IMG/VR virus record: IMGVR_UViG_3300018426_000070
Coordinates: 1 to 36,543 of that record
Strand: one strand, 5' to 3'
DNA length: 36,543 nucleotides
DNA from: a virus
The notes under the pieces are model-generated. The model was not told where the DNA came from. It saw nothing but the letters and a program-made list of their open reading frames with translations, and did no database searches. Within the stretch, counting starts at the first letter, position 1; the number at the start of each line of letters is the position of its first letter. This document shows, in pieces, positions 6,501 to 36,543 of this stretch. The position numbers and the translations under genes were made by a program.

Positions 6501-6827
6501 ACTACAATCAATCCAAGTGCATACACAGATAGTATTATGAGTTCAGAACAATTATTAAATAGAGATACATTAGGAGTAAGTCCTTTGCTAAGAGGAGGTC
6601 TACCTAATGGTCCTGTAAGTACAGAACAAGCAATTAATATTGCTAATCAAAATATTCCAGTACAAATTCCAACAGCTATAGAACAATCGGCTAGTGAAGC
6701 GGCTTCACAACTTCAGCGTCTTAATGAAGGAAATATTGATGCTCCGGCAGTAAATTTACCAAGAGCAGATCTTGGTGGAAATGTTCGCTACAATAAAAGA
6801 ACTGGTAGATGGGAAGGTGGATTTTAA
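3594..6827 (+). CDS. Large baseplate hub-like structural protein (gp27-like C-terminal region)
   Basis: A protein of 1077 residues encoded directly before gp5. Residues about 1-75 look helical. Residues about 100-310 form a first ordered domain (LGLHILTQDEINKPELYR, MGASVEFFMDNLNIQSIVMMG). A middle, Gly/Ser/Asp-rich part is likely loops, and residues about 680-810 resemble the hub/late-control-D type fold: VDMIRVDMRIVGDPFWLS and LIIVDTFSGLYRVIQIQH, then FEEGVFTQELQMIRMR. Such proteins form the trimeric hub that carries the gp5 spike and connects to the tube. T4 gp27 is only 391 residues, so this is a much expanded version. The last 250 residues are low-complexity Asn/Gln/Leu-rich. The gene ends in a TAATG overlap with gp5, which supports stoichiometric co-production. 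No separate gp27 gene is visible in the window. Confidence 0.72.
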   Translation: MAFRNILNGVNKKLNDLANFVPEFENNFRNKLFSATQNVKTQLEGLQGEAQGALGLVTNKSPFATQNPTQFKSNLSPKPGPIGHSVRAGELVPGVTPPPWPNELEDYSSMNAILGLHILTQDEINKPELYRTTKPKWSIIQNGGGAKRTGKESRTRVEQAMGASVEFFMDNLNIQSIVMMGSRNRNSNATKIEFEVYEPYSMGLFYQALLVAAKSAGFGHYIQAPFLLTIDFKGYDVDGNVMDVPYGRRLLPIKLINSQFVTNEGGSTYKVEAIAWNEQALHDSVTQIKTDVALRGRTIREMLQTGAQSLTEINNKRLKELKEKNQVAAPDQYVILFPGESEPKSIYDAYGAGGEFDTGTATAQPGYDEFGVSSPADTNRPTTDAYLSEYYQSLVGTDAGSEEVPGTFAEFYNGLANRTTDSSLLETMFKKYAASDYSNNKIGSKWIIDDPLAGGTQPMNSQGLADQESLSQRYPIFNRTSRNLQLSDDIRVFSFKAGTRIQEIIEEVLISSQYGRALARQLNDLPEDGMVDWYDIQTDTYVIKDEEELQRGGQYPSLYVYRVVPKKYGHEHFAAVSEPTQGVAERKVQAAKEYNYVYTGKNKSVLDFNIEYNYAFLAPFTADRGSGSAADRVGAAEGQAARHPHPGFRSGGDGAGTTTPIEGQASAVETVNNASGNDHSSGIADPQIQVARAFNDRLIFSNVDMIRVDMRIVGDPFWLSDNGVGNYHARDTAYTAMTADGQVNTGRSEVYCNVLFRTPVDTDPTSGKMIFPEDLIIVDTFSGLYRVIQIQHKFEEGVFTQELQMIRMRNQEESGPSQNVGALVPITNPAESVNEITAEFAKRLTATNSRVGDTANRLDWMVEAENILPGFNNLRSVITKTRDIIGSDAFAAFGQVASAFETFQNGINIKDLAQIGTDFNALTAASQDLLGLTQLNLNGGDVLGNIGSSVGSNLQNSLGQNLSSLNDAVTTINPSAYTDSIMSSEQLLNRDTLGVSPLLRGGLPNGPVSTEQAINIANQNIPVQIPTAIEQSASEAASQLQRLNEGNIDAPAVNLPRADLGGNVRYNKRTGRWEGGF

Positions 6828-9430
6828 TGGCAGGAATGAGTAGAACACAAGGAAGATCAGTAAGGCCTACACAACCTCTAAGTCCAGGTCCGTTTGAAGC
6901 TATTGTAATTAACAATCTTGATACAAAATACATGGGTACACTACAGGTTGAATTGCTAAAACAGTCTGCTTCGGGTAACCAACCAGAAAGATCAGGACAA
7001 ATATTTGAAGCAAGTTATTTGAGTCCCTTTTACAATGTAACACCAGTTTCTCAATCATCAAGAAATGAAGGTTATAGACACACACAACAAAGTTCAGGAT
7101 TTTGGGCAGTGCCACCTGATGTTGGTACAAGAGTTCTTGTAATTTTTGCAGAAGGAAATACAAGCAAGTGTTATTGGATAGGATGTATCCAAGACGAATT
7201 TATGAATTTTATGGTACCCGGAAATTCTTCAACAGCAAATTTGCGAGACTTTCCGAAAAAAGCACCAGCCGCAGAATTTAATAAATTTATTCATCAAACT
7301 CCATCAGATCCTACAACAGTGCAAAAATCTGTTCATTTAGATTTGGCAAAAAGTCTTATACAAAGTGGTTTAATTGAAGACGAAGTAAGGGGAATCACAA
7401 CATCAAGTGCTAGAAGAGATATTCCGAGTGCAGTATTTGGATGGAGTACACCAGGACCTTTAGATAAAAGAGAAGGTGCTCCAAAAGCTGAAATTGGACA
7501 CGAAGGTACTAAAGTAAGCATGTTCAAAAGTAGATTAGGCGGTTCTAGTTTTGTAATGGACGACGGTGATGATAAATTTTTACGTATAGGTAAACCTTGG
7601 GAAACACCTATGCAATATATAAATTTAGAGGCTAGAGAAGATGGCGGCGATCCTACACTTCCTCACAATGAGCATGTCCGATTAAGAACACGTACAGGAC
7701 ACCAAATTGTGTTGCACAATACTGAAGATTTAATTTACATTAGTAACAGTAGAGGAACAGCGTGGATTGAACTTACAAGTAACGGAAAAATTGATATTTA
7801 CAGTAGAGATAGTATTAGTGTAAGATCTCAAGAAGATATTAATTTTACGGCAGATAAAGATGTTAACATTACAGCTGGTCAAACATTTAATCTTGTAGCA
7901 GATAAAATTAAAACAAGCACTATTAACAGCACCAATATGGTAAGCGGTACACAGTTTAGTGTAAATGCAAGTGCTGATATAAGTATGCAAACCAACACTA
8001 ATATGATACTATATGCGACTAACGAAGGTAGTATTGTTGCAGGTGCAAAACAAAGTGTTATATCTGGAGAAAATTTAGCTCTTGGTAGTGCAACAGGTGT
8101 AGGTATAGAAGGTTGTGGATATGTAAACATTACTACTGATGGAGATTACAATTTAAAAGCATTAGGAAATATTAAAGTATTAGCAGAAGCCGAGATTTCG
8201 CAAAAAAGTGCATTAGCAACGAAAATAGAAGCAGGGAATATTTTTCATGTTAAGAGTGTAGGCACTATGACACTACGATCTGATGCTACACAAAATTTAC
8301 ATGCTGGTGCAAACATGGTAATATATGCTGACGGAAACGATATTGATATTCAAGGATCAACTCCTCCAGCGCCGCAAGCACCTGCAGAAGCAGTTATTCC
8401 ACCTGCTCCAAATATTGTAGATCCTACTCCTCCTGAATTAGCAAGAGAAACAAGTAGACGTCCTTCACAAGAACCTTGGTTTGAACATGAACATTTAGAT
8501 CCAGTAAAATATAGTTCAGATAATATACGTGCAGGAAACTCACAACCTGAAACTTATCCTCCTAGCACTCCAGATACATTTGCTAGAGGACCTGGAGGAA
8601 CAGTTGTACTTTCAGGATCTCAACCAAATAGTTACAATACCTCAGGAACAGCACCGGAAGGAAGTGCAAGATTTGATCCTGTAGGAGCGGCAAATATTCC
8701 ACCTGATCCAGAACCTGTAAAAGTAAGTAAACAAGAGTTATCTCGTGTATTTGCACAAGCTCTTTATGCAGAAGGATTTACAGAAGAACAAGTTTACTCT
8801 GCTATTGCTTGTGCTGAAACTGAATCCGGATTAGAATTGAAAACTGAAGGCGGATATGGCGGAACAAGCAACGATAGAATACGTAGTATTTTTAGCAGTA
8901 CACGACAACTTAGTGATTCTGCACTAACAGAACTTAAAGCTGATAAAGCACAATTTTTTGAATATGTTTACGGTAATCAACATAGACTTGGACGTAACAT
9001 GGGCAATACAACAGCAGGTGATGGTGCTAAATTTATCGGAAGAGGACTTATACAGCTAACAGGTAAAGGCAATCACGAACGTTATGGTAAACTTGCTGGA
9101 CTTACAAAAGAAGAGTTAGTGTCAGATTATAATCCATTCGGTGTAGAAATTGTAGATGATCCTACGTTGATGCTTACAGATGTAGCAAAGAGTGTTGCTG
9201 TTACTGCCGCATACCTTAAAGAAAGATATAGAGATTTTGGTAGAGGTGTTTTAGGAAACTTTAGAATGGCCATTGCTGGTACAGAAGGCGGATTTAATCT
9301 TGGCTATCCAAAAGATCAAGGTTACTATCAAGCTAAGTTTTTGTCTAATGGTAGATATGATCCTGATTGGGTAAGAAGTCCAATATTAGTAGCAAGTATA
9401 GATCCAAATTTGAATAGTGGAGTAAGTTAA
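6827..9430 (+). CDS. 5: gp5-like baseplate spike with C-terminal GH19-type lysozyme domain
   Basis: A protein of 867 residues starting at 6827 within the TAATG overlap; an in-frame ATG at 6809 lies inside the hub gene and is unlikely. Residues about 20-160 are the gp5/VgrG-type OB-fold (GPFEAIVINNLDTKYMGTLQ; GFWAVPPDVGTRVLVIFAEGN). Residues about 283-510 are a run of short beta repeats typical of the trimeric needle (VNITAGQTFNLVADK, AGANMVIYADGNDIDIQG). A Pro-rich linker follows (about 511-545). Residues about 633-867 are GH19-like: AETES with candidate catalytic Glu664, VYGNQHRLGRN, then GRGLIQLTGKGNHERYG near 738. The needle punctures the outer membrane and the enzyme locally cuts peptidoglycan glycan strands. 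T4 gp5 instead has a T4-type lysozyme between the OB-fold and the needle. Confidence 0.9.
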   Translation: MAGMSRTQGRSVRPTQPLSPGPFEAIVINNLDTKYMGTLQVELLKQSASGNQPERSGQIFEASYLSPFYNVTPVSQSSRNEGYRHTQQSSGFWAVPPDVGTRVLVIFAEGNTSKCYWIGCIQDEFMNFMVPGNSSTANLRDFPKKAPAAEFNKFIHQTPSDPTTVQKSVHLDLAKSLIQSGLIEDEVRGITTSSARRDIPSAVFGWSTPGPLDKREGAPKAEIGHEGTKVSMFKSRLGGSSFVMDDGDDKFLRIGKPWETPMQYINLEAREDGGDPTLPHNEHVRLRTRTGHQIVLHNTEDLIYISNSRGTAWIELTSNGKIDIYSRDSISVRSQEDINFTADKDVNITAGQTFNLVADKIKTSTINSTNMVSGTQFSVNASADISMQTNTNMILYATNEGSIVAGAKQSVISGENLALGSATGVGIEGCGYVNITTDGDYNLKALGNIKVLAEAEISQKSALATKIEAGNIFHVKSVGTMTLRSDATQNLHAGANMVIYADGNDIDIQGSTPPAPQAPAEAVIPPAPNIVDPTPPELARETSRRPSQEPWFEHEHLDPVKYSSDNIRAGNSQPETYPPSTPDTFARGPGGTVVLSGSQPNSYNTSGTAPEGSARFDPVGAANIPPDPEPVKVSKQELSRVFAQALYAEGFTEEQVYSAIACAETESGLELKTEGGYGGTSNDRIRSIFSSTRQLSDSALTELKADKAQFFEYVYGNQHRLGRNMGNTTAGDGAKFIGRGLIQLTGKGNHERYGKLAGLTKEELVSDYNPFGVEIVDDPTLMLTDVAKSVAVTAAYLKERYRDFGRGVLGNFRMAIAGTEGGFNLGYPKDQGYYQAKFLSNGRYDPDWVRSPILVASIDPNLNSGVS

Positions 9431-10502: not shown

Positions 10503-10949
10503 ATGAGCACTATAGAAAAAAATTTATACAAAAGAATTGCTGTTAATAGTAACACAAATAGGCCAAAACCTGTTGTGTCTAGCAAAGCATATAGAGGGCT
10601 TTCAACAGTAAATCCTGCACAAAAAAGTACTACACTTTATGATCTTGCTCTAATCAAACAGGACTTGATTAACCATTTTCATATACGTCAAGGTGAAAAA
10701 TTAGAAAATCCTGAATTTGGTACTATTATATGGGACGCTTTGTACGAACCATTTACAGATGATTTAAAAAAAGCTATTGCAGAGAATGTAACAAATATAG
10801 TAAATTATGACCCTAGATTACAGGTCAATGGCATATCAGTATCAACATATGAGAGTGGAATACAAATTGAAGTTGATCTAACATATTTGCCCTACAATAT
10901 TTCCGAAAAAATGCGTCTAGATTTTGACGAAAACAACGGACTTATCTAA
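10503..10949 (+). CDS. 25: gp25-like baseplate wedge subunit
   Basis: A protein of 148 residues (T4 gp25 is 132). The GPW/gp25 fold is recognisable from LYDLALIKQDLINHFHIRQG, then NPEFGTIIWDALYEPFTDD, IVNYDPRLQVNGISVSTYE and IQIEVDLTYLPYNISEKMRLDF. gp25-type proteins start sheath polymerisation at the baseplate and are found in contractile injection systems generally. It follows the PAAR gene by 7 bases and precedes gp6, the usual wedge partner. AGGA at 10486-10489 is a possible ribosome binding site, somewhat far from the ATG. The first 45 residues are basic and probably extended. Confidence 0.92.
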   Translation: MSTIEKNLYKRIAVNSNTNRPKPVVSSKAYRGLSTVNPAQKSTTLYDLALIKQDLINHFHIRQGEKLENPEFGTIIWDALYEPFTDDLKKAIAENVTNIVNYDPRLQVNGISVSTYESGIQIEVDLTYLPYNISEKMRLDFDENNGLI

Positions 10950-11010: not shown

Positions 11011-14000
11011 ATGTCATCAACAGACAGACAAAATCGATTATTGGTTGCCGAAGATTGGAAACGCATATATCAAAGTTTTAAGAACGCAGATTTTCAAAGT
11101 TATGACTTTGACAATTTACGCAGAACAATGATAAACTACCTCAGACAAAATTATCCTGAGGATTTTAATGATTATATTGAAAGTTCAGAATACCTAGCAC
11201 TAATTGATCTAATTGCATTCCTAGGACAAAATATAAGTTTCCGTGTTGATTTAAATGCTAGAGAAAACTTCCTTGAATTAGCAGAACGTCGCGAAAGCGT
11301 ACTACGTCTAGCAAGACTATTGTCTTATAATCCTAAAAGAAATCAATCAGCGACTGGCATGTTAAAAATTGATAGTATTAATACAAGTGAAGATGTACTA
11401 GACAGTAATAATTTTAACCTTGCAGGACAAAGAATTAATTGGAATGATCCAAGTAATCCTGATTGGTATGAACAATTTATTAAAGTAATGAATGCTTGTT
11501 TGGGAGGACAAAATCAATTTGGCAAACCATTAAAAATTGAAACAGTAGCAAGCATACCGCACTATCAATATAGATTTAATGCTCTAAACACAGATAGACC
11601 TATCTATACATACAGTTCTACAGTGCAAGGACAAACACTACCATTTGAAGTTGTTAGTAGTGATTTAGAATCTGGTACAGTGTCTGAAGAACTTCCTATT
11701 GTTGGTAACAGTCTAGCATGTTTGTACAAAGATGACAATCAAGGACCAGCAAGTACTAATACAGGATTCTTCTTACAGTTTAAACAAGGAACACTCGACG
11801 AAGGAGAGTTTGCAGTAACAAATCCAACTACAAATCAAATTATTGATATTGATGCAATCAACATTAACGATAAAGATGTTTGGTTGTTTGAGCTAGACGA
11901 TACAGGACAAGAAGTTGCAGAATGGACTAAAGTAGATGCAGTTGAAGGTAACAATGTCATTTATAATAGTATTAATAAAAATATAAGAAATTTATTTGCT
12001 GTCAAAACAAGAATTCAAGATAGGATTAGTTTAGTTTTTAGTGATGGTGTTTTTGGAAATCTGCCAAAAGGAAGATTTAAAGCTGTTTATAGAACAGGCG
12101 CAAATCAAAGATACACAATTAAACCTGAAGAAATGCAAAACATAAGGATTTTAATTCCCTATCTAAGCAAAACAGGTATACCTGAAACGTTAACAATTAC
12201 TGCAAGTTTAAATAATACAGTATCTAATGCTAGTGTAAGTGAAACAAATGCAAGTATAAAAGCAAATGCACCTGCAACATTTTATACACAAAATAGAATG
12301 ATAACAGCAGAAGATTATAATGTTGCACCATTAGGTATAAGCCAAGAAATAGTAAAAGTAAAAAGTGTTAACAGAAATGCTAGTGGAATAAGTAGATATT
12401 TTGATCTAAAAGATACAACAGGAAAATACAGTAGCACAAACTTGTATGCAAACGACGGTGTTATCTATAAGCAAACAAAAGATCTAAGAACAAGTTTTGA
12501 TTTTATTACACAAACTGATATCGAGAGTGCAATAACTAATGTAATTGAACCTATTATAAGAGATAGAAAAATACAAAATTATTATCTTGCAAACTTTACA
12601 AAAATTTTAACGTCTGATTTAGACGCTTCATGGGTATCAAGCACAGCAGATACAAACAGAACAACAGGTTATTTTACACAACAACCAGAAGCAAGTAACC
12701 CAAATGCGTTTGCATATCCTGTTAATACATTTACTGCAAACAATTTAAGATTTGTAGAACCGGGAACACTCTTAAAATTTGTTGCACCGCAAGGCTATCA
12801 TTTTATGACTAATAAGAAAAACATTTTGATGGCAGGTCAAAGCAATCATCCTGGTGCAGTGGATTATCTTTGGACAAAAGTTATTAGTGTATCAGGTAAT
12901 GGAACAATTATAGCAGACAACGGATTAGGACCGATTGTTTTAAATGATATTATTCCTACTGATGCAATCCTTCAAGAAGTTAAACCTAAGTTAGCAAACG
13001 TAATTATTGATGCAGTTAAAACACAAATTATTGACCAAGCGTTTGCAACCAACACATTTGGTTTAAGATATGATGTAGAAACAAGAACTTGGCGATTAAT
13101 TACAAATCAAAATATAGATACTGTTTCTTCGTTTAGCACAGGTAAATCAGGTGATACAAGCAATCAAAATCTAGATGCAAGTTGGTTACTATATTTTAAA
13201 ACTGATGGTGAAAAATATGATATCACTTATCGTACATTAACGTATGTTTTTGAAAGTGATAAAGAAATAAAATTCTTTTATGATAGCACCAACAAAACAT
13301 ATGATAATTTGACAGGAAAAATTATTAAAGATAAAGTTGAAGTTTTAGAAATCAATCCAAAACCGGATACTACAAGCCCACTTACAAGAAGTTATGATTT
13401 TGAAGTGGTTAAAGAATATAGAGATGCAGAAGGTTATATTGATACTAAAAAAATAGAAATTGGATTTTTTGATGTAGACGATGACGGTGTTGTGGATAAT
13501 CCTGAAGGATTTGTAGACATTGTTGCAGAAACTGTTAATCCTGCAGAAAAATATATATTTGTTAAAAAATACATCACTACAGACCAAGTTGAGGATTTCA
13601 AATTTGTAGACGCTACAGAAGAAGGCATTAATATTGTTGCTTCTACAAGTGCTATAGGTGCATATAGTCAATACAATGCTGGACAACTATTTTTTGATAG
13701 ATCAACTTCATTATTTTACAAACTAGACAATGCCAAGAAAAATTTAAACATTATTGAAGATTATAGAGGTTACATTGGTAGAGATAAACTTAAATTCCGT
13801 TACCTACACAGTGCTGATTACAATCAAAGAATTGATCCTGCGGCTTCGAATATTATTGACACATATTTGCTAACAAGAAGTTATGATACTTTTTATAGAC
13901 AATGGTTAGCAGGAGATATAGCACAAAAACCAATTCCTGCAAGTGCGGATCAATTGTTCCAAAGCTATGGTACAGAATTAGATAAGATAAAAAGTATAAG

Positions 14001-14535
14001 TGATGAAGTAATTTATCATCCTGTAAAATATAAACCTTTATTTGGATCGAAAGCTGAGACAAGTTTGCAAGCAACATTTAAAATAGTAAAGAATCCTGAT
14101 ACAGTTGTAAATGACAATGAAATAAAATCAAGAGTAATTAGTGCCATTAACACATTCTTTAATTTAGATAATTGGGAATTTGGAGAAAGTTTTTACTTTA
14201 CTGAATTGAGTACATTTATTATGAATGAACTTACTCCAGACGTTGTTAGTATTGTAATTGTACCAAATGCAAGCGATCAGTCATTTGGTAGTTTGTTTGA
14301 AATAAAATCAGAAGCTGATGAAATTTTTGTAAACAGTGCAACAGTTAATAATGTAGAAATTATAGATGCAGTTACAGCAGGCAGACTAAAAGCAACAGGT
14401 AACGTAGTAACCGCAAGTCAAGAAACTGCAAACACTGGAGTTCAAAGTTCATCTTCAGGTAGTGTTATATCATCCGGCTCAACAGGAGGCGGCTTAGATA
14501 CAAATAGTAATTCCGGTGGAGGTTATGGTTACTAA
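11011..14535 (+). CDS. 6: gp6-like baseplate wedge subunit, expanded
   Basis: A protein of 1174 residues, much longer than T4 gp6 (660). The N-terminus is diagnostic: LRQNYPEDFNDYIESSEYLA, LIDLIAFLGQNISFRVDLNA, RENFLELAERRESVLRLARL, LSYNPKRNQSATG (about 47-120), as in the gp6/BaseplateJ family. A core near residues 300-480 includes FSDGVFGNLPKGRFKAVYR and TAEDYNVAPL, typical of gpJ-like domains. The C-terminal region (about 1030-1110) has VISAINTFFNLDNWEFGESF and ELTPDVVSIVIVP, also gp6-like. Extra length falls mainly between about 560 and 1000, and the end is a Ser/Gly-rich tail. gp6 dimers form the wedge ring that rearranges when the sheath contracts. The next gene overlaps by TAATG. Confidence 0.9.
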   Translation: MSSTDRQNRLLVAEDWKRIYQSFKNADFQSYDFDNLRRTMINYLRQNYPEDFNDYIESSEYLALIDLIAFLGQNISFRVDLNARENFLELAERRESVLRLARLLSYNPKRNQSATGMLKIDSINTSEDVLDSNNFNLAGQRINWNDPSNPDWYEQFIKVMNACLGGQNQFGKPLKIETVASIPHYQYRFNALNTDRPIYTYSSTVQGQTLPFEVVSSDLESGTVSEELPIVGNSLACLYKDDNQGPASTNTGFFLQFKQGTLDEGEFAVTNPTTNQIIDIDAININDKDVWLFELDDTGQEVAEWTKVDAVEGNNVIYNSINKNIRNLFAVKTRIQDRISLVFSDGVFGNLPKGRFKAVYRTGANQRYTIKPEEMQNIRILIPYLSKTGIPETLTITASLNNTVSNASVSETNASIKANAPATFYTQNRMITAEDYNVAPLGISQEIVKVKSVNRNASGISRYFDLKDTTGKYSSTNLYANDGVIYKQTKDLRTSFDFITQTDIESAITNVIEPIIRDRKIQNYYLANFTKILTSDLDASWVSSTADTNRTTGYFTQQPEASNPNAFAYPVNTFTANNLRFVEPGTLLKFVAPQGYHFMTNKKNILMAGQSNHPGAVDYLWTKVISVSGNGTIIADNGLGPIVLNDIIPTDAILQEVKPKLANVIIDAVKTQIIDQAFATNTFGLRYDVETRTWRLITNQNIDTVSSFSTGKSGDTSNQNLDASWLLYFKTDGEKYDITYRTLTYVFESDKEIKFFYDSTNKTYDNLTGKIIKDKVEVLEINPKPDTTSPLTRSYDFEVVKEYRDAEGYIDTKKIEIGFFDVDDDGVVDNPEGFVDIVAETVNPAEKYIFVKKYITTDQVEDFKFVDATEEGINIVASTSAIGAYSQYNAGQLFFDRSTSLFYKLDNAKKNLNIIEDYRGYIGRDKLKFRYLHSADYNQRIDPAASNIIDTYLLTRSYDTFYRQWLAGDIAQKPIPASADQLFQSYGTELDKIKSISDEVIYHPVKYKPLFGSKAETSLQATFKIVKNPDTVVNDNEIKSRVISAINTFFNLDNWEFGESFYFTELSTFIMNELTPDVVSIVIVPNASDQSFGSLFEIKSEADEIFVNSATVNNVEIIDAVTAGRLKATGNVVTASQETANTGVQSSSSGSVISSGSTGGGLDTNSNSGGGYGY

Positions 14536-29412: not shown

Positions 29413-30015
29413 ATGACGGACATTAAAGACAAATCAGGAGTAGTAGTTAAAGGACACATCAAAATACATGATCCTAATACAGGTGAAGTGTATGTTGATA
29501 AGCGAAATGCTATTCATTATGAAAATATGAGTATTGCTCTTGCTGAAAGCCTTGCAAACCAAGGCCAAGGTATGATATATGAAATGAGCTTTGGTAACGG
29601 CGGCACAAGCGTTGATCCAACAGGTATTATTACATATCTTACACCAAACTCAACAGGAACTAATGCTAGTTTATATAATCAAACATTTACAAAAGTTGTA
29701 GACGATAGAAGTACAAGTAACACAGATCCAGTTAGAAATAAAATAGAAACACGTCATGTTAGCGGAACAAACTATACTGACATTGTTGTTACATGTTTAC
29801 TCGACTACGGAGAGCCACAAGGACAAGATGCTTTTGATACGTCAAACAGTAACGAAGCACTATATGTTTTTGATGAGCTAGGTTTAAAAAGTTATAATCC
29901 GTCAGGTACAGGTAGATTAATTACACATGTAATTTTTCATCCAGTACAAAAATCTTTAAACAGATTAGTACAAATAGATTATACAGTTAGAGTACAAAGT
30001 TTGTCAGGAGTGTAA
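29413..30015 (+). CDS. Conserved small virion structural protein of marine T4-like phages (function unknown)
   Basis: A protein of 200 residues. The ATG at 29413 is preferred over an in-frame one at 29359 because the latter lies within the giant gene and upstream of the late-promoter element; AGGAAAG at 29401 fits as ribosome binding site. The N-terminus (VVVKGHIKIHDPNTGEVYVD, then KRNAIHYENMSIALAESLAN) and GMIYEMSFGNGGTSVDPTG resemble proteins near tail-fibre genes in cyanophage and pelagiphage genomes, as I recall them. The rest is beta-rich without catalytic motifs. Position between the giant protein and the fibre genes suggests a baseplate or fibre adaptor; that role is inferred. Confidence 0.8.
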   Translation: MTDIKDKSGVVVKGHIKIHDPNTGEVYVDKRNAIHYENMSIALAESLANQGQGMIYEMSFGNGGTSVDPTGIITYLTPNSTGTNASLYNQTFTKVVDDRSTSNTDPVRNKIETRHVSGTNYTDIVVTCLLDYGEPQGQDAFDTSNSNEALYVFDELGLKSYNPSGTGRLITHVIFHPVQKSLNRLVQIDYTVRVQSLSGV

Positions 30016-30018
30016 TAG

Positions 30019-32055
30019 ATGCCATATACAATTAATTTCACTGACGTTACAAACAAAGGCAGTATAACTGTTGAAGATAATGATATTAACAACCAAACAA
30101 GTTTAAGTTTAGTAGGTAGAAACACAACAAGTTATGGTGTTGAATTTAATCAAAACTTTCTAAAACTTTTAGAAAATTTTGCTAACGCATCTGCTCCTGC
30201 TAATCCGGTTGAAGGACAGTTATGGTATGACACAACACCAGGCAGTGAACAATTAAAAGTTTATGATGGAACACAATGGATAGCAAGTGGTGGTTTGAAA
30301 AAAGCAAGTACAGCTCCTGAGGCATCTAACAGTTTAACAGGTGATCTTTGGGTCGATACAGACAACCAACAATTATATTTGTATACAGGTTCGGGCTGGA
30401 CATTAGTAGGTCCAGAATATGCAGGAGGTTTAAGCACAGGTGTTAGTGCAACAGTAATCCAAGGCCAAGATAATATTGATTACACAGCATTACTTGTTGA
30501 AATAAATCAATTACCTGTTGCTATTATTGCCAGTGATACATTTACACCAAAAGCACAAATTAATGGATTTAACCAAATTAATCCAGGAGTTAATTTAAGC
30601 GTTGCAGATATAACTGGTGCAGGTACACCTAAGTTTTATGGACCTGCAGAACAAGCAGAAAGCCTAATTGTAAATGGGACAAAAATTGAAGCCTCTAATT
30701 TTTTAAGAGGAGATGTAGCTAGTACTACAACAGAACAATTAAGAATTAGAACTGATGACGGTATGTTAGTTGGTAGTGGTAACCAATTGTCAATAGGTGT
30801 TGAAGGACAAGCAGGTATTATTACACACAATACTAGTGGCAGTTCATTAGACATTCGTGTAAACAATGAAGGCCAAATTAAAACTGTAATGCGTGTAGAC
30901 AGTACAACTAATATTGGTATTAACAATACAGCACCTAGTGAAGCATTAGATGTTACAGGAAAAATAAAGGTAAGTGACGCTATTACAATTGATGGCACAA
31001 CTGCAAGTACAAATTTTGGCACAGGTGCGTTAGTTGTAAAAGGTGGCACAGGTATAGCAGGCGATACAAATATTGGCGGTACTTTAAATATTATCGGTGA
31101 TACTGAAGTAAGAAATATTGTGCCAGACACAACTAATACATATACAATTGGTTCTGCAAGTAACAAATTTAGAAACATTTATGCTACAGACTTTACAGGA
31201 AATTTAATTGGTAATGTAACAGGGCAAGTAAGTGGTAGATCAGGTAGTGCTGATAAAATTTCTAGTGCAACTACATTTGCTATGAGCGGTGAAGTAAATG
31301 CACCCGCATTTACATTTGACGGACAAGTAGGCGGCAACCAAAAAACTTTTGTTACTACTGTATCTAACAGTTTTATTAGTAATAAAACATTTACGAATGC
31401 GTCAACAACTACAGATGAATTTTTATTAAACAGAACGCAAGGACAAGTTGGTCTATATAGAATTAGACAAGAAGATTTGCTGTCAAGTGTTCCTACTAAT
31501 CCACCAGGTGTAATTTTACCGTATGCAGGAACCACAGCACCTTTAAATTGGCTTATATGTGATGGTAGTGAAGTACTACAAATTGATTATCCTAAACTAT
31601 TCCAAGTAATAGGATTTAACTATTTACAAGCAAATCTAGTTAGTGATGGCGGTGTTGCTAAATTTGCATTACCTGACTTACGTGGTAGAACAATCGCAGG
31701 TCTTGATGATATGGGAGGTACAGCCGCTAATAGGATTACTGGACTTAGAGGTAGCGAACTTGGTAATACTGGCGGTACAGAAGATGTAACGCTTAGTGCA
31801 AATCAAATACCAGATCACGAACACGATTTACAAATTGGTCCAGATGGTAATAAAACACAATTTTACACTATACTAGATGCGGCAAAAGGTCCAGGAAGTC
31901 CTGCAGAATCAATTGTATTTGATGCACCTACAGGACAAAATGCTGGACAAGCGGCAACATCAAGTGGTAGTGTTGCAGGAACTACAGGTCAAGCAGTGGA
32001 TATAATGAATCCATTTATGAGTTTGAATTATATAATTTATACTGGGAATGTTTAA
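30019..32055 (+). CDS. Tail fibre protein with C-terminal phage tail-collar domain
   Basis: A protein of 678 residues. Residues 1-140 are the fibre N-terminal module shared with the next two genes (TSLSLVGRNTTSYGVEFNQN, FLKLLENFANASAP, EGQLWYDTT, TGDLWVDTDNQQLYLYTGSG). The middle is shaft-like with ALDVTGKIKVSDAITIDG and an NLIGNVTGQVSG repeat. The C-terminus (about 490-678) is a tail-collar domain: GVILPYAGTTAPLNWLICDG, YPKLFQVIGF, FALPDLRGRTIAG, PDHEHD with His600 and His602 as candidate metal ligands as in T4 gp12, and a closing NPFMSLNYIIYTG. This suggests a trimeric receptor-binding or short-tail-fibre role. It starts three bases after the previous stop and overlaps the next gene by TAATG. 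A gp12 functional equivalent is plausible but not proven. Confidence 0.85.
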   Translation: MPYTINFTDVTNKGSITVEDNDINNQTSLSLVGRNTTSYGVEFNQNFLKLLENFANASAPANPVEGQLWYDTTPGSEQLKVYDGTQWIASGGLKKASTAPEASNSLTGDLWVDTDNQQLYLYTGSGWTLVGPEYAGGLSTGVSATVIQGQDNIDYTALLVEINQLPVAIIASDTFTPKAQINGFNQINPGVNLSVADITGAGTPKFYGPAEQAESLIVNGTKIEASNFLRGDVASTTTEQLRIRTDDGMLVGSGNQLSIGVEGQAGIITHNTSGSSLDIRVNNEGQIKTVMRVDSTTNIGINNTAPSEALDVTGKIKVSDAITIDGTTASTNFGTGALVVKGGTGIAGDTNIGGTLNIIGDTEVRNIVPDTTNTYTIGSASNKFRNIYATDFTGNLIGNVTGQVSGRSGSADKISSATTFAMSGEVNAPAFTFDGQVGGNQKTFVTTVSNSFISNKTFTNASTTTDEFLLNRTQGQVGLYRIRQEDLLSSVPTNPPGVILPYAGTTAPLNWLICDGSEVLQIDYPKLFQVIGFNYLQANLVSDGGVAKFALPDLRGRTIAGLDDMGGTAANRITGLRGSELGNTGGTEDVTLSANQIPDHEHDLQIGPDGNKTQFYTILDAAKGPGSPAESIVFDAPTGQNAGQAATSSGSVAGTTGQAVDIMNPFMSLNYIIYTGNV

Positions 32056-33881
32056 TGGCTTATAAACTTAATAAAACAGATGGATCATTACTTGTTGATT
32101 TAATTGACGGTACTATTGATACAAGTAGTACTTCATTAACTTTAGTAGGGAGAAACTACACAGGTTTTGGTGAATATCTAAATGAAAACTATATAAAACT
32201 TTTAGAAAACTTTAGTAATACAAATGCTCCAAGCAATCCTATTACTGGGCAACTTTGGTGGGATACTACACAAGCAAGATTAAAAGTTTATGAAGGCCAA
32301 ACATTTAAAGCAGTTGGTGGACCTTTCGTTCAAAAAACAGAACCTAATATGGTAGCTGGTGATTTATGGATAGACAACCTTAATGATCAAATATATTTTT
32401 ATGATGGTGAAGGTACTCCAGTACTAGCAGGTCCTTTGTATACAAAAGATCAAGGGCTAACAGGATTCAAAGTAGAAACACTCAGAGATGTACAAGACAG
32501 AACAAGAACTGTAGCTAGTTTATACATAGGAAACGCTTCAACTGGAACAGAAAGAGTTGCAGTAATTAGTAACTTAGAATTTACACCTGCTGTTGGTTTT
32601 GAGATAGCTGGTATTACAGGAAATATTAAAAAAGGTATCAACATTGTATCTTCTGATTTTATATACGAAGGAACTGCTGACATTGCAAAAGCACTTCTTA
32701 CATCAAGTGGGCAAAGAGTTGTTGCAGATGATTTCCTTACAACAAGTACGAATAGTATTATATCAGGAAGTTTAACAGTATCCAACAGTGCAGGTATTAC
32801 TATTGGTCCAAATGCTAACACAGTTATTAGTCCATTAGGTGCTGACTTTGTTTATTCAAATCAATTACTAGATGAAAACGTAATATTTAGAGTTACATCA
32901 AGTGGTTCTGGTGCAGGTCAAGTTGATGCAATTTATATTGATGCACAAAATCAAAGAGTTGGCGTCTTTAAATCTAATCCAGATTATACTTTAGATGTCT
33001 CAGGCGATTTAAGAATCACAGGTAATTTACTTGTTGAAGGCACACAAGCAAGTATAGATGTTAATAATTTAAGAATTCAAGATAAACAAATAGAACTTGC
33101 AATTACAGATGATAGTACACTTGTAACTGATACTGCGGCAGATGATGCAGGTATGGTTGTAAGGGTAACAGGTAATGATAAAAAATGGACTTGGATACAA
33201 GCTACAAATTCATGGACAAGCAATGTAAATGCAAACTTAACAAGTGGAAACACATACAAAATAGATGGTAATGACGTATTAAGTGCAACAGCATTAGGTA
33301 CTGGTGTTACAAGTGCAAACGGTTTATCTAGCATTGGTACTCTCACAAGTTTAGCAGTTGACAACGTTTCCATAGACGGTAATACAATTACAACTACAGG
33401 CGGTGGCTTAAACTTAACACTAGCAGGTAATTTAGACCTAACAAATAATAATAAAATTACAGGACTAGGTGTGCCTAGTGCAGATACTGATGCGGCTTCT
33501 AAAGTTTACGTTGATGAACAAATTGCGGCGGCCGCGATATCATTCAGTATGGATGCAACAGGACTTAATGACACACAGATCGGTCTTGTTCTTGAAGATC
33601 TTGTTCCGGCATCATCAGTTGCGGCAAACGGCACAATAGCAAGAATACACTGTACATCACTTGCAGGTGCAACAGTAAGTAATATTGATATTACCGCTGT
33701 AACAACAAAATCATTCATTGCTGTAGATTCAGCTGGTGTACAGAATGAATCTGTGCTTCAAGATGTAGCTTTTGGAAGCGCAACAGGTACAGTTAGTGTA
33801 ACTATAACAAGAGCTTTAAAAGAATATGTAACAAGCAGTGGCGCTTGGACATTTAGTCAGGATCTAGTGTCAAGTGTTTAA
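32055..33881 (+). CDS. Tail fibre-like structural protein, paralogue 2 of the shared N-terminal module
   Basis: A protein of 608 residues. Residues 1-135 repeat the module of the previous fibre: TSLTLVGRNYTGFGEYLNEN, YIKLLENFSNTNAP, TGQLWWDTT, AGDLWIDNLNDQIYFYDGEG. Beyond that the sequence differs: TLDVSGDLRITGNLLVEGTQ, an RIQDKQIELAI segment, and a KITGLGVPSADTDAASKVYV hinge typical of fibres near residue 475. A run of four alanines follows, then a C-terminal domain of about 110 residues ending GAWTFSQDLVSSV. There is no collar domain and no intramolecular chaperone motif. The shared head and different tail suggest several fibre types attached to equivalent baseplate sites. The ATG overlaps the upstream stop. 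Confidence 0.82.
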   Translation: MAYKLNKTDGSLLVDLIDGTIDTSSTSLTLVGRNYTGFGEYLNENYIKLLENFSNTNAPSNPITGQLWWDTTQARLKVYEGQTFKAVGGPFVQKTEPNMVAGDLWIDNLNDQIYFYDGEGTPVLAGPLYTKDQGLTGFKVETLRDVQDRTRTVASLYIGNASTGTERVAVISNLEFTPAVGFEIAGITGNIKKGINIVSSDFIYEGTADIAKALLTSSGQRVVADDFLTTSTNSIISGSLTVSNSAGITIGPNANTVISPLGADFVYSNQLLDENVIFRVTSSGSGAGQVDAIYIDAQNQRVGVFKSNPDYTLDVSGDLRITGNLLVEGTQASIDVNNLRIQDKQIELAITDDSTLVTDTAADDAGMVVRVTGNDKKWTWIQATNSWTSNVNANLTSGNTYKIDGNDVLSATALGTGVTSANGLSSIGTLTSLAVDNVSIDGNTITTTGGGLNLTLAGNLDLTNNNKITGLGVPSADTDAASKVYVDEQIAAAAISFSMDATGLNDTQIGLVLEDLVPASSVAANGTIARIHCTSLAGATVSNIDITAVTTKSFIAVDSAGVQNESVLQDVAFGSATGTVSVTITRALKEYVTSSGAWTFSQDLVSSV

Positions 33882-33882
33882 G

Positions 33883-33889
33883 ATAAATA
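33883..33889 (+). promoter_or_regulatory. Late-promoter-like element ATAAATA before the third fibre gene
   Basis: ATAAATA begins two bases after the previous stop codon. The predicted start near 33895 leaves a leader of about 17 bases with AAAGG before the ATG at 33912. Confidence 0.6.
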
Positions 33890-33911
33890 TATTAAATGTA
33901 AAGGTTGAAAC

Positions 33912-35390
33912 ATGGCATATACGATAAACAAATATAGCGGAGCAACATTAGTAGTTGTTCAAGATGGTACAATAGACACAACAACAGATTTAACGTTTGT
34001 TGGTAAAAATTATGCTGGGTACGGTGAAATACAAAACGAAAACTTTTTGTTTTTGTTAGAAAATTTTTCCGGAACATCTCAACCACCTAAACCAGTAAGC
34101 GGACAAATATGGCACGATCAAGCCACAAATAAAATTAAATTTTATGATGGTAGTAAATTTAAAACTACAGGTGGCGCAGAAGTTGCTACTACTCAACCAA
34201 CAGGTTTAACTACTGGTGATTTTTGGTGGGATTCAGGAAACAACCAACTTTACACATATAACGGAAGTAGTTTTATTTTAGTAGGTCCGCAAGGTACAGG
34301 AACAGGTTTAACACAGATGCAATCACGTACAGTTCGTGATACGCAATCTGTCAACCACAGTATTATTGCCGCAACCATTGATGACGAAGTTATTTTTACA
34401 ATTAGCTCACAAGAATTTACTATTGATTCAACTGATCCTGCAAACGCAATTACTGGATTTGATGTAATCAAAAAAGGTACAACATTGGTAAACACCCAAG
34501 CGGCAACAAACGGTGTTACAACTACTAATCATTATTATTGGGGTACTTCAAGTAACGCATTAAAATTAAACGGAATTGATGCAAGTTCTTTTGTGCAAAC
34601 AGTTCCAGGACAACCAACAACATTTTCAACAACAGTGCGTTTTCCAGATAGCGGAATAACTATAGGTGATCAAAATGATTTACACTTATACATTGAAAAC
34701 GGTAACCAAGGTGTAGTTGCAAACGAAGTTGGTGTTAACAATGTAATAAAATTAAAAACAAGTAACGCAAACAGTACACAAATTACAAGTGCTATTGTAC
34801 AATCAACAGGAATTAATCCTGGATCTACAAGCACATATACACTTGGTTCAAGCACAGCAAAATGGAGCGATGTGTGGGCTGACAATTTAAGAGGAAATGC
34901 AACATCAGCTACTGCTATTTTATACAACAGTGCATCTTATGCTGGTGATACTAGTGCTACAGCAAATACTACTGCACTAAGAGACAATTCAGGTGATATT
35001 TTTGCAAACTTTTTCAGAGGAACTGCTATTCAAGCTCAGTATGCTGATTTAGCAGAAAAATACACAACAGACAAAGAATATCCAGTAGGTACAGTAATGG
35101 CTGTTGGAGGAGAAGCAGAAACAAGAGCGGCAAAAGTAAGTGATTTTGCTATTGGAGTTATTTCAGATAAACCTGCATATTTAATGAATGCAGAATCAGA
35201 TGGACACCCTATTGCTTTAAAAGGTCGTGTTCCTGTAAGAGTAACAGGTCCTGTATCTAAAGGACAGGCTGTTTACGCATGGCAGGATGGTGTTGCTTCT
35301 ACTATTTCAAGTAATGGATTGGTTGGAGTTGCACTAGAGTCAAGTAATGACGACGGCGAAAAGTTAATCGAGTGTGTGTTAAAAGTATAA
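33912..35390 (+). CDS. Tail fibre-like structural protein, paralogue 3 of the shared N-terminal module
   Basis: A protein of 492 residues. Residues 1-135 repeat the module again: TDLTFVGKNYAGYGEIQNEN, FLFLLENFSGTSQP, SGQIWHDQATNKIKFYDGSK, TGDFWWDSGNNQLYTYNGSS. A MQSRTVRDTQSVNHSIIAAT segment near 135-155 matches the LRDVQDRTRTVASLYI segment of paralogue 2, so these two are closer to each other. After shaft-like repeats (TLGSSTAKWSDVWADNLRGN) the C-terminal region (about 376-492) reads YADLAEKYTTDKEYPVGTVM, ALKGRVPVRVTGPVSKGQAV, then LVGVALESSNDDGEKLIECV, a compact beta domain common at the ends of marine phage fibre proteins. Specific receptor unknown. Confidence 0.83.
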   Translation: MAYTINKYSGATLVVVQDGTIDTTTDLTFVGKNYAGYGEIQNENFLFLLENFSGTSQPPKPVSGQIWHDQATNKIKFYDGSKFKTTGGAEVATTQPTGLTTGDFWWDSGNNQLYTYNGSSFILVGPQGTGTGLTQMQSRTVRDTQSVNHSIIAATIDDEVIFTISSQEFTIDSTDPANAITGFDVIKKGTTLVNTQAATNGVTTTNHYYWGTSSNALKLNGIDASSFVQTVPGQPTTFSTTVRFPDSGITIGDQNDLHLYIENGNQGVVANEVGVNNVIKLKTSNANSTQITSAIVQSTGINPGSTSTYTLGSSTAKWSDVWADNLRGNATSATAILYNSASYAGDTSATANTTALRDNSGDIFANFFRGTAIQAQYADLAEKYTTDKEYPVGTVMAVGGEAETRAAKVSDFAIGVISDKPAYLMNAESDGHPIALKGRVPVRVTGPVSKGQAVYAWQDGVASTISSNGLVGVALESSNDDGEKLIECVLKV

Positions 35391-35425: not shown

Positions 35426-36334
35426 ATGGCAGTAAACGACATTATAACATCTGCAAGATACAACAATGCTCAAGGTAGAGTTGCCGCAGTTTTAGGTAAC
35501 GGTTCAGGTAATGAAGGTTACGGACAAGAAGTAACAAGCCAGCAAGTATCAAGCGGTTTAAGAGTAACTGCACAAGACATTAACAATCTTTTTACAGATC
35601 TTAATAAAATTAAAATACATCAAATCGGTGCAGTGCCAAACAGCATTGCAACAGTAGCAATTGGTGACACCATTGCAGAAGATACAAGTGACGGTGATGT
35701 TTTAAAAGGGTTTGCAGACTATGAAGATTTTATTACAGTAATTGAATCACCTGCAGAAAGATTTAAATTAGCAGTTGCACAAAGTAGTGACGATAATGCC
35801 GCAAAAATTGCCGAAAGAAGAAATCAATGGAGAGCTCCAATTGATACTGAAATTACTATGACATTTGATGATGCAGATCATAGAAGGCATTTTTTTAATG
35901 CAGGCGGGTCTTTAACCATGATAAGTGCATTAAGTAACACACCAGTTTCAGGTGATAGTGTTGCTAAAAGCCAAGACTGGGCAAATATCCTTGCAACAGC
36001 AGGCACTGTCAGTATTAATTATGATACAACTAGCACTACTGGACAAGGTACACCATCTGCGATTGGAAATTATGATTTAACTACTTCATACCAAGAAATT
36101 TACAGAAGAAGTGCAACAGGCGTTTACGGAAATAATAATTATATTATCGAAGCAAAAGCACCTGATGCAAAAACTATTGCTATTAGATTTTACTACTATG
36201 ATCATAATCCTGGTGGTTACAAAATTGACGAACCAGTTCAAGGAGTTCTAAAAGCACAAGTTGGATATGTAAGAGCAAGCGGGTTGTATGTAGATGTTGC
36301 ATTGCCTGCTTTTGCAATAACTAATGCCTTATAG
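35426..36334 (+). CDS. Conserved virion structural protein, tandem paralogue 1
   Basis: A protein of 302 residues, function unknown. The N-terminus MAVNDIITSARYNNAQGRVA, then LGNGSGNEGYGQ and TAQDINNLFTDLNKI, is nearly repeated by the next gene. Near residue 150, TFDDADHRRHFFNAGG is a motif I associate with putative fibre-associated proteins of marine T4-like phages. The rest is beta-rich (SYQEIYRRSATGVYGNNNYI; IAIRFYYYDHNPGG). No enzyme motif or membrane segment is visible. It directly follows the fibre genes and has its own late-promoter-like element, which suggests a tail-periphery component made late. Confidence 0.8.
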   Translation: MAVNDIITSARYNNAQGRVAAVLGNGSGNEGYGQEVTSQQVSSGLRVTAQDINNLFTDLNKIKIHQIGAVPNSIATVAIGDTIAEDTSDGDVLKGFADYEDFITVIESPAERFKLAVAQSSDDNAAKIAERRNQWRAPIDTEITMTFDDADHRRHFFNAGGSLTMISALSNTPVSGDSVAKSQDWANILATAGTVSINYDTTSTTGQGTPSAIGNYDLTTSYQEIYRRSATGVYGNNNYIIEAKAPDAKTIAIRFYYYDHNPGGYKIDEPVQGVLKAQVGYVRASGLYVDVALPAFAITNAL

Positions 36335-36355: not shown

Positions 36356-36543
36356 ATGGCAGTCGGTGATATTATCACAGCCAACAATTATAATGCAGTC
36401 CAAAATAGGGTAGAAGCTATCTTAGGAAATGGTAGCGGCACCGAAGGATATGGCGAAACTACAGCAAGTAATAATGTTGCTGTAGACGATATAATTTATG
36501 CCAATGATCTAAACGCACTATACACAGATTTTGACAAAATTTA
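36356..36543 (+). CDS. Conserved virion structural protein, tandem paralogue 2 (partial, N-terminal)
   Basis: An open frame starts at ATG 36356 with GGAG at 36344-36347 and runs off the window. About 62 residues are visible: MAVGDIITANNYNAVQNRVE, AILGNGSGTEGYGE, DDIIYANDLNALYTDFDKI. It aligns with the start of the preceding protein, so the pair arose by duplication. The 21-base gap has no ATAAATA element, so it is probably co-transcribed with its neighbour. Confidence 0.85.
   Translation, partial: MAVGDIITANNYNAVQNRVEAILGNGSGTEGYGETTASNNVAVDDIIYANDLNALYTDFDKI

Follow-up and report, generated by a model that had tools for sequence, protein, structure and literature searches.

The window analysed here is the whole virus record IMGVR_UViG_3300018426_000070 (36,543 bases), and the subject of this study is a row of three adjacent genes in it, here called F1, F2 and F3. 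We think it probable that the proteins encoded here are three paralogous fibres at the rim of the baseplate in a large myovirus related to T4 and that their genes occupy the position of T4 gp10-gp12. The three proteins would be held by a common N-terminal anchor and carry fixed tips, the tip of F3 being a self-cleaving chaperone. This assignment is based on the homology of the N-terminal halves, on gene order, on the pairing of anchors and tips in relatives and on the fold of the F3 tip model.

A preliminary description of this DNA had proposed three neighbouring fibre genes that share an N-terminal module of about 130 residues, differ in their C-termini and arose by duplication. N-termini and C-termini were aligned separately. 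Over residues 1-135, 66/125 positions are identical between F1 and F2, 57/127 between F1 and F3 and 62/125 between F2 and F3. The corresponding alignment scores of 291, 275 and 318 far exceed the maxima of 53, 50 and 60 obtained in 300 shuffled controls per pair (means 32-33), and the similarity is therefore due to homology and not to fibre composition. Profiles built from orthologues gave pairwise profile-profile probabilities of 99.5-99.8% for residues 1-60, 99.7-99.9% for residues 60-135 and 98.9-99.7% for residues 140-300. Shuffles and profiles together rule out generic fibre composition as the source of the similarity, and homology runs through residue 300 in all pairs, so that the shared module is real and its length is about 300 residues instead of 130. 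Beyond residue 300, F1 has stalk stretches in common with F2 (82%) and with F3 (96%), and F2 and F3 have nothing in common (0.2%). The tips of the three proteins are unrelated, as had been proposed, with probabilities of 0.1-1.1%. As judged from these sequence comparisons, the view that F1, F2 and F3 are paralogues that arose by duplication holds, and it is borne out by the N-terminal homology.

Residues 60-130 consist of two copies of a G.LW.D...LY.Y.G repeat (W-D repeats). Because this part alone also matches inside structural and fibre proteins of cyanophages (ACG-2014i), the specific anchor corresponds to about residues 1-60, a segment without a Pfam match. In the F3 model, residues 88-129 gave weak matches to collagen XVIII trimerisation domains and to Mtd (Z 3.2-4.6). 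These matches hint at the W-D repeat as a trimerising unit, and their Z scores are too low to claim it.

The three genes lie in a baseplate operon. Its order is a phrog_7145 wedge subunit, a hub/tail-lysozyme-like protein, a PAAR protein, a gp25-type wedge and gp6, followed by an open reading frame (ORF) of 4950 amino acids, a 199-amino-acid phrog_11259 protein and then F1, F2 and F3. The name gp25 is taken from gene order. For gp6, the top matches among the best 15 of 68 matched records are in jumbo phages, including Phosso, SCTP-2, Atu_ph07 and PA5oct, with 35.8-37.0% identity. The family scans covered the window proteins apart from an 873-amino-acid ORF (6809-9430) and the giant ORF. F1-F3 are thus positioned after gp25, gp6 and the giant gene, a presumed equivalent of gp7, as is the gp10/gp11/gp12 group in the T4 gene order. 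By its place in the operon, the giant protein is a candidate holder of the fibre anchors. The same arrangement is seen in PA5oct, where two wedge genes, an 11.6-kb gene and a 606-base gene precede gp358, gp359 and gp360. The PA5oct record notes electrospray ionisation tandem mass spectrometry (ESI-MS/MS) for each of these genes but not for the small gp356; PA5oct gp357, for which ESI-MS/MS is noted as well, is similar in size and place to the 199-amino-acid gene. Both gp358 and gp359 carry the anchor, gp358 ending in T4 Gp10_C (E 9.8e-24) and gp359 in the F3 domain.

Scans of IMG/VR yielded 165 loci, or 166 sources together with the window. Close relatives are over-represented, because three scans, one of them for the broader sample below, each retained no more than the 80 best loci; in one scan the F3 loci were chosen by full-length F3, and many loci overlap on the same contig. 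Three anchor genes are present in 130 sources, two in 31, one in 5 and more than three in none. The 36 sources with fewer than three include two pieces of the window, and most have the array near the locus end. Ten long contigs (89-275 kb) that were searched whole each contain three full-length anchors, and a fourth weak anchor match in G001, G002 and G009 covers part of the model only. When the sample was broadened by queries taken from Atu_ph07, PA5oct and a distant F2, it comprised 229 distinct gene sets, including five loci of four named phages; these sets were deduplicated by protein content and not by contig, and one contig may count twice via loci of different extent. Three genes were found in 153 of these sets, two in 54, one in 14, four in 7 and six in 1. 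A complete F1-F2-F3 array is present in 92/229 sets, and 42 more have F1-F2-F3 near a locus end. The labelled tips run in the order F1, F2, F3 in all 229 sets, with F1 first wherever present and F3 last in every set that has it, except L195. The preliminary description had also suggested a comparison of gene number across relatives. At this one place, the array has one gene in Atu_ph07 and RaK2, two in PA5oct (and a separate, weaker three), three in the window, four in some sister viruses and six in XacN1. The six anchor-bearing genes of XacN1, ORF232-237, stand in a row (L170, 14049-23105); a passage on this phage reports it without tail-fibre homologues (PMC5852040). The separate triplet of PA5oct, gp316-318 (L173, 3425-8923), is more distant, carries the anchor motif and has ESI-MS/MS noted for all three members.

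Each anchor group in the sample is paired with its own tip. In a narrow tree of 249 modules, of which 16 were unlabelled, the labelled positions 1, 2 and 3 (77, 78 and 78 modules) separate completely, with supports of 0.999, 0.978 and 0.965, respectively. The positional alignments omit a truncated F1 of 161 amino acids and the F3 of L093, which has 877. Hidden Markov models (HMMs) of the tips matched their own position in 85/86 F1 (the miss being the 161-amino-acid fragment), 84/84 F2 and 79/79 F3 proteins and gave no cross-hits to the other two positions among the 249 proteins. Since the HMMs were built from the same proteins, the absence of cross-hits is the informative part of this result. 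In a broad tree of 446 modules, in which 5 anchors were cut, anchors lie in their own group for 129/129 F1-tipped, 138/138 F2-tipped and 135/147 F3-tipped proteins. Not one of the 414 anchors with a classified tip belongs to one group and bears the tip of another. Anchor and tip distances are also rank-correlated for F1 (0.63) and F2 (0.74).

The end of F3 had been described as a YADLAEKY-type beta domain, and it can now be assigned to a recognisable kind, the Peptidase_G2 or phi29 gp12-like domain. In the AlphaFold prediction of the tip, block means lie at 86-94 for residues 381-490. With VIA-align, its best match was pre-mature phi29 gp12 (3suc; Z 15.4, root-mean-square deviation 2.2, 111 residues), and the C-terminal fragment of gp12 (3gqh) gave Z 15.1, with residue 379 on residue 692 as the first aligned pair. 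The gp12 chaperone leads this ranking by 3 Z units, the next entry having Z 12.2. F3 Asp379 superposes on gp12 Asp692, which adjoins the gp12 cleavage point, and the D.AE motif that aligns with this site is kept in 79/79 distinct F3 proteins. Passages on phi29 state that the mature appendage was modelled to residue 691 (PMC6542822), that the chaperone domain is not present in the virion (PMC9863714) and that it is released by auto-proteolysis (PMC4690869). A sequence profile of 30 F3 tips reaches the tailspike Dpo31 (E 2.6e-4) and 3gqh (E 0.002). Peptidase_G2 matches 51/62 F3 orthologues at E <=0.01, with a best value of 3.1e-10. F3-type domains are also C-terminal in Atu_ph07 gp176, PA5oct gp359 and Campylobacter CP220 gp036. 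In F3, mean pairwise identity is 0.624 for the tip and 0.454 for the stalk (301-370), compared to 0.518 and 0.523 in F1 and 0.427 and 0.471 in F2. Because the domain is C-terminal on otherwise different fibres and is more conserved than the stalk, a role in assembly fits better than receptor binding. From its model, the F3 tip resembles a folding aid that cleaves itself off more than it does a head for receptor binding. Among unusual forms, two giant fibres of 2637 and 2798 amino acids on the 275-kb contig G001 (L171, L172) end in an F3-type domain, and the 877-amino-acid F3 orthologue of L093 retains anchor and tip on a stalk that is longer by about 385 residues. A literature search that joined peptidase G2 to tailspike and chaperone gave nothing.

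The tail-collar end ascribed to F1 was confirmed by a Collar match, which was also obtained with 7/7 F1 orthologues scanned; neither Collar nor Gp10_C was matched in F2 or F3 in the Pfam scan. Full-length F1 matched 328 phage records, and the best 30 of the 328 cover residues 375-676, that is, the distal, Collar-containing part and not the anchor. A phmmer search of the PDB with F1 and F3 gave nothing at the limits used. For F2, a novel domain had been proposed. The Pfam scan assigned its tip (residues 490-608) to no family, and a tblastn search of 50,697 phage records with the tip gave no match at E 0.01. On the other hand, phrog_6002 matches the distal stalk of F2 at residues 358-549 (E 3.8e-13) and so extends into the tip, and residues 386-490 of the F2 stalk match, as a profile, a tail fibre of solved structure (E 1e-4). 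Compared with the PDB, the F2 model reached at best Z 6.0, for a stalk stretch, and at most Z 3.5 for rows starting at the tip. Such scores do not amount to evidence of a new fold.

Taken as a mechanism, the N-terminal anchor would dock F1, F2 and F3 on the baseplate, the paired W-D repeats and the shared stalk would come next, and each fibre would end in its own fixed tip. The Collar end of F1 likely contacts the receptor, as a short fibre or pin. The F3 stalk would be folded and trimerised by an intramolecular chaperone of the phi29 gp12 type at its C-terminus. Probably, this domain then removes itself by cleavage between Ala378 and Asp379, and a mature fibre of 378 residues is left. Several observations weigh against this assignment. 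The anchor was modelled poorly, with a predicted local distance difference test score (pLDDT) <50 at F3 residues 26-50 and F2 residues 1-7 and 10-40, and the docking site on the baseplate therefore stays a prediction. The virion evidence comes from a distant phage, PA5oct, and the link of F1 to Gp10_C consists of PA5oct gp358 and one orthologue, L123, that is below the cut-off (E 9.2e-4). The F1 and F2 groups have low support in the broad tree (0.541 and 0.646, respectively), compared to 0.911 for F3. Moreover, 12/147 F3-tipped anchors are outside all three groups (L166, L167, L186, L187 twice, L189 twice, L195, L200, L218, L222 and L223), the tips of 27 anchors are unclassified (6 of these anchors are in the F3 group, 3 in F2, 1 in F1 and 17 elsewhere), and the anchor-tip correlation is weak for F3 (0.31). 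The window F3 scores 19.2 bits against PF11962, for which the curated threshold is 25, and its tip is therefore called chaperone-like and not a filed member of this family.

Further points of this kind concern the F3 domain and would favour a domain that stays on the virion uncleaved and forms a permanent tip or a decoration-like cap. Asp379 is preceded by Ala in 79/79 F3 proteins, where phi29 gp12 has Ser, and F3 lacks about 50 residues that would connect the two halves matched to the gp12 domain. Foldseek ranked a Haloferax virus HFTV1 capsid-portal chain first (E 2.0e-4), slightly before gp12 (3.4e-4), and capsid decoration-type proteins, among which this chain is counted, have the same fold at Z 12.2 and below, so that F3 could end in a never-cleaved tip. 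Weak matches to Phage_cement (9/62) and Phage_cement_2 (4/62) among the F3 orthologues point the same way. Nevertheless, the lead of the gp12 chaperone in VIA-align, the Peptidase_G2 matches and the conserved D.AE at the cleavage site make an uncleaved cap rather unlikely. Dpo31 likewise has Ala before Asp, and the PDB names its final domain a chaperone domain. The preliminary description had read the three genes as a ready-made set, arisen by duplication and domain swapping, of receptor-binding heads that are interchangeable on one baseplate socket; on this reading, recombination would exchange the heads. A shared anchor with unrelated tips would suit such a set, as would three F2-group anchors with unclassified tips (L176, L183 and L197) and a tip exchange in sister viruses (see below). 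However, no crosses were found among the anchors with a classified tip, the tip order is fixed in the 229 sets apart from F3 not being last in L195, and the F3 tip is more conserved than its stalk and chaperone-like. Among the relatives sampled, interchangeable heads fail as a rule that would apply to F1-F3 in general, and we regard this explanation as improbable. F1-F3 could also follow one another within a single long composite fibre, as T4 gp34-gp37 do, since the genes are adjacent on the same strand and the F1 stop and F2 start overlap by one base. Composite fibres generally use unlike joints, whereas all three proteins here have the same N-terminal anchor, and complete single-gene arrays exist, which makes this arrangement very improbable. 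Three baseplate-rim fibres with fixed tips thus remain the explanation that we favour.

A tip exchange is seen in a fourth gene between F2 and F3, which occurs in L185, L190, L191, L198 and L205/L206, and also in L197, where the second gene is unclassified. In all six that entered the broad tree, the anchor of the fourth gene falls in the F3 group. Gene 2 of L188 and gene 3 of L190 are identical at 410/450 residues, then at 23/49 and then at 42/184; the former ends in an F3-type domain and the latter in an unrelated tip. The control pair L190/L198 is alike to the end. These alignments show that tips are exchanged at the fourth slot in sister viruses. We tentatively suggest that three fixed slots are accompanied by one variable slot, in which an F3-derived gene swaps tips on a nearly unchanged anchor and stalk of 450 residues. 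If so, host-range change would be confined largely to this slot, and the self-trimming F3 and the Collar-tipped F1 would perform conserved steps. The fourth gene of L185 has a Collar match below the cut-off. Several of these loci have small, differing ORFs after the fourth gene, one of which, in L205, is weakly like a 2OG-Fe(II) oxygenase. An ORF of 122 amino acids in this place was considered as a tail-fibre assembly protein; the likeness was by eye only and Pfam gave no support.

Among the five complete single-gene sets, four carry the F3 tip (L167, L186, L200 and L223), the fifth being RaK2 with an unclassified tip, and Atu_ph07 has one full anchor gene with an F3 tip. This suggests that an F3-like gene is ancestral and that F1 and F2 arose from it by duplication, acquiring new distal parts before the group radiated, a direction that we infer. 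The coordinates of all features are listed in the table. Downstream of F3, a second tandem pair of genes is present (35426-36334 and 36356-36541, the latter cut by the window end). Their N-termini, MAVNDIITSARYN... and MAVGDIITANNYN..., are alike by eye, and neither gene had a match in the Pfam scan.

Table. Features of the baseplate and fibre region of the window
Feature	Position	Strand	Basis or remark
gp25-type baseplate wedge	10503..10949	+	family name: baseplate wedge subunit
gp6-type baseplate wedge	11011..14535	+	homology matches
Giant gene, 4950 aa	14535..29387	+	candidate anchor holder, from gene order solely
199-aa gene, phrog_11259	29416..30015	+	immediately upstream of F1
F1, fibre gene 1, 678 aa	30019..32055	+	ORF; Collar PF07484
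F1 anchor, residues 1-60	30019..30198	+	alignment and profiles
F1 paired W-D repeats, residues 60-135	30196..30423	+	profiles
F1 proximal stalk common to F2 and F3, residues 140-300	30436..30918	+	profile-profile comparison
F1 tail-collar domain, residues 497-559	31507..31695	+	PF07484, E 1.7e-13
F2, fibre gene 2, 608 aa	32055..33881	+	ORF
F2 anchor and W-D repeats, residues 1-135	32055..32459	+	alignment and profiles
F2 tip, residues 490-608	33522..33878	+	no family match
F3, fibre gene 3, 492 aa	33912..35390	+	ORF
F3 anchor and W-D repeats, residues 1-135	33912..34316	+	alignment and profiles
F3 Peptidase_G2-like / phi29 gp12 chaperone-like domain, residues 371-492	35022..35387	+	fold of model, profiles
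ADLAE motif, residues 378-382; predicted cleavage between 378 and 379	35043..35057	+	gp12 alignment

Many uncultivated viruses, and jumbo phages such as XacN1, have probable baseplate fibres that can be recognised by anchor residues 1-60. Our data also suggest a division into fixed and variable fibre genes, so that host-range studies can target the right gene, and F3 offers a simple cleavage test. Systems of this kind are already known from T4 gp10-gp12 and from the multi-fibre phages CBA120, RaK2 and phiKp24. In the titles, abstract starts and passages covered, no published title names such fibre arrays, and neither the anchor family nor the trio of fixed genes nor a variable fourth slot was met there, which is a weak form of absence. 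In CBA120 (TSP1-4), RaK2 (gp526-534) and phiKp24, several receptor-binding proteins are joined via conserved N-terminal domains, according to passages of PMC10253068 and PMC9700779. The window resembles these branched tailspikes in having multiple fibres that share conserved N-terminal domains. In contrast, those proteins dock by domains like T4 gp10 and have depolymerase bodies, and the Pfam scan of the window proteins matched neither a depolymerase family nor a gp10-like docking domain; CBA120 TSP3 and TSP4 appear in structure comparisons at weak scores only. The phi29 gp12 chaperone (PF11962, Peptidase_G2) is similar to the F3 domain in model fold, in its extreme C-terminal position on a fibre or spike and in the D.AE motif at the cleavage site. 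It differs in that the F3 domain is shorter, has Ala and not Ser before Asp and, in the window protein, lies below the Pfam cut-off. PA5oct gp358/gp359 and Atu_ph07 gp176 have the same anchor in the same place after gp6 and a giant gene, and gp359 and gp176 have the F3 domain at their end. Unlike the window with its three genes, PA5oct has two and Atu_ph07 one at that place, and the anchors of PA5oct match the first 80-94 positions only. The closest known parallel is T4 gp10/gp11/gp12, peripheral baseplate trimers that are held to derive from one primordial fold and to have specialised later, as stated in a passage of PMC3004832. Both systems are encoded by sequential genes, and F1 has a Collar domain and the first fibre of PA5oct has Gp10_C. 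The F3 tip is of another kind than those of T4, and the similarity is structural in T4, whereas here it is N-terminal and plain in sequence.

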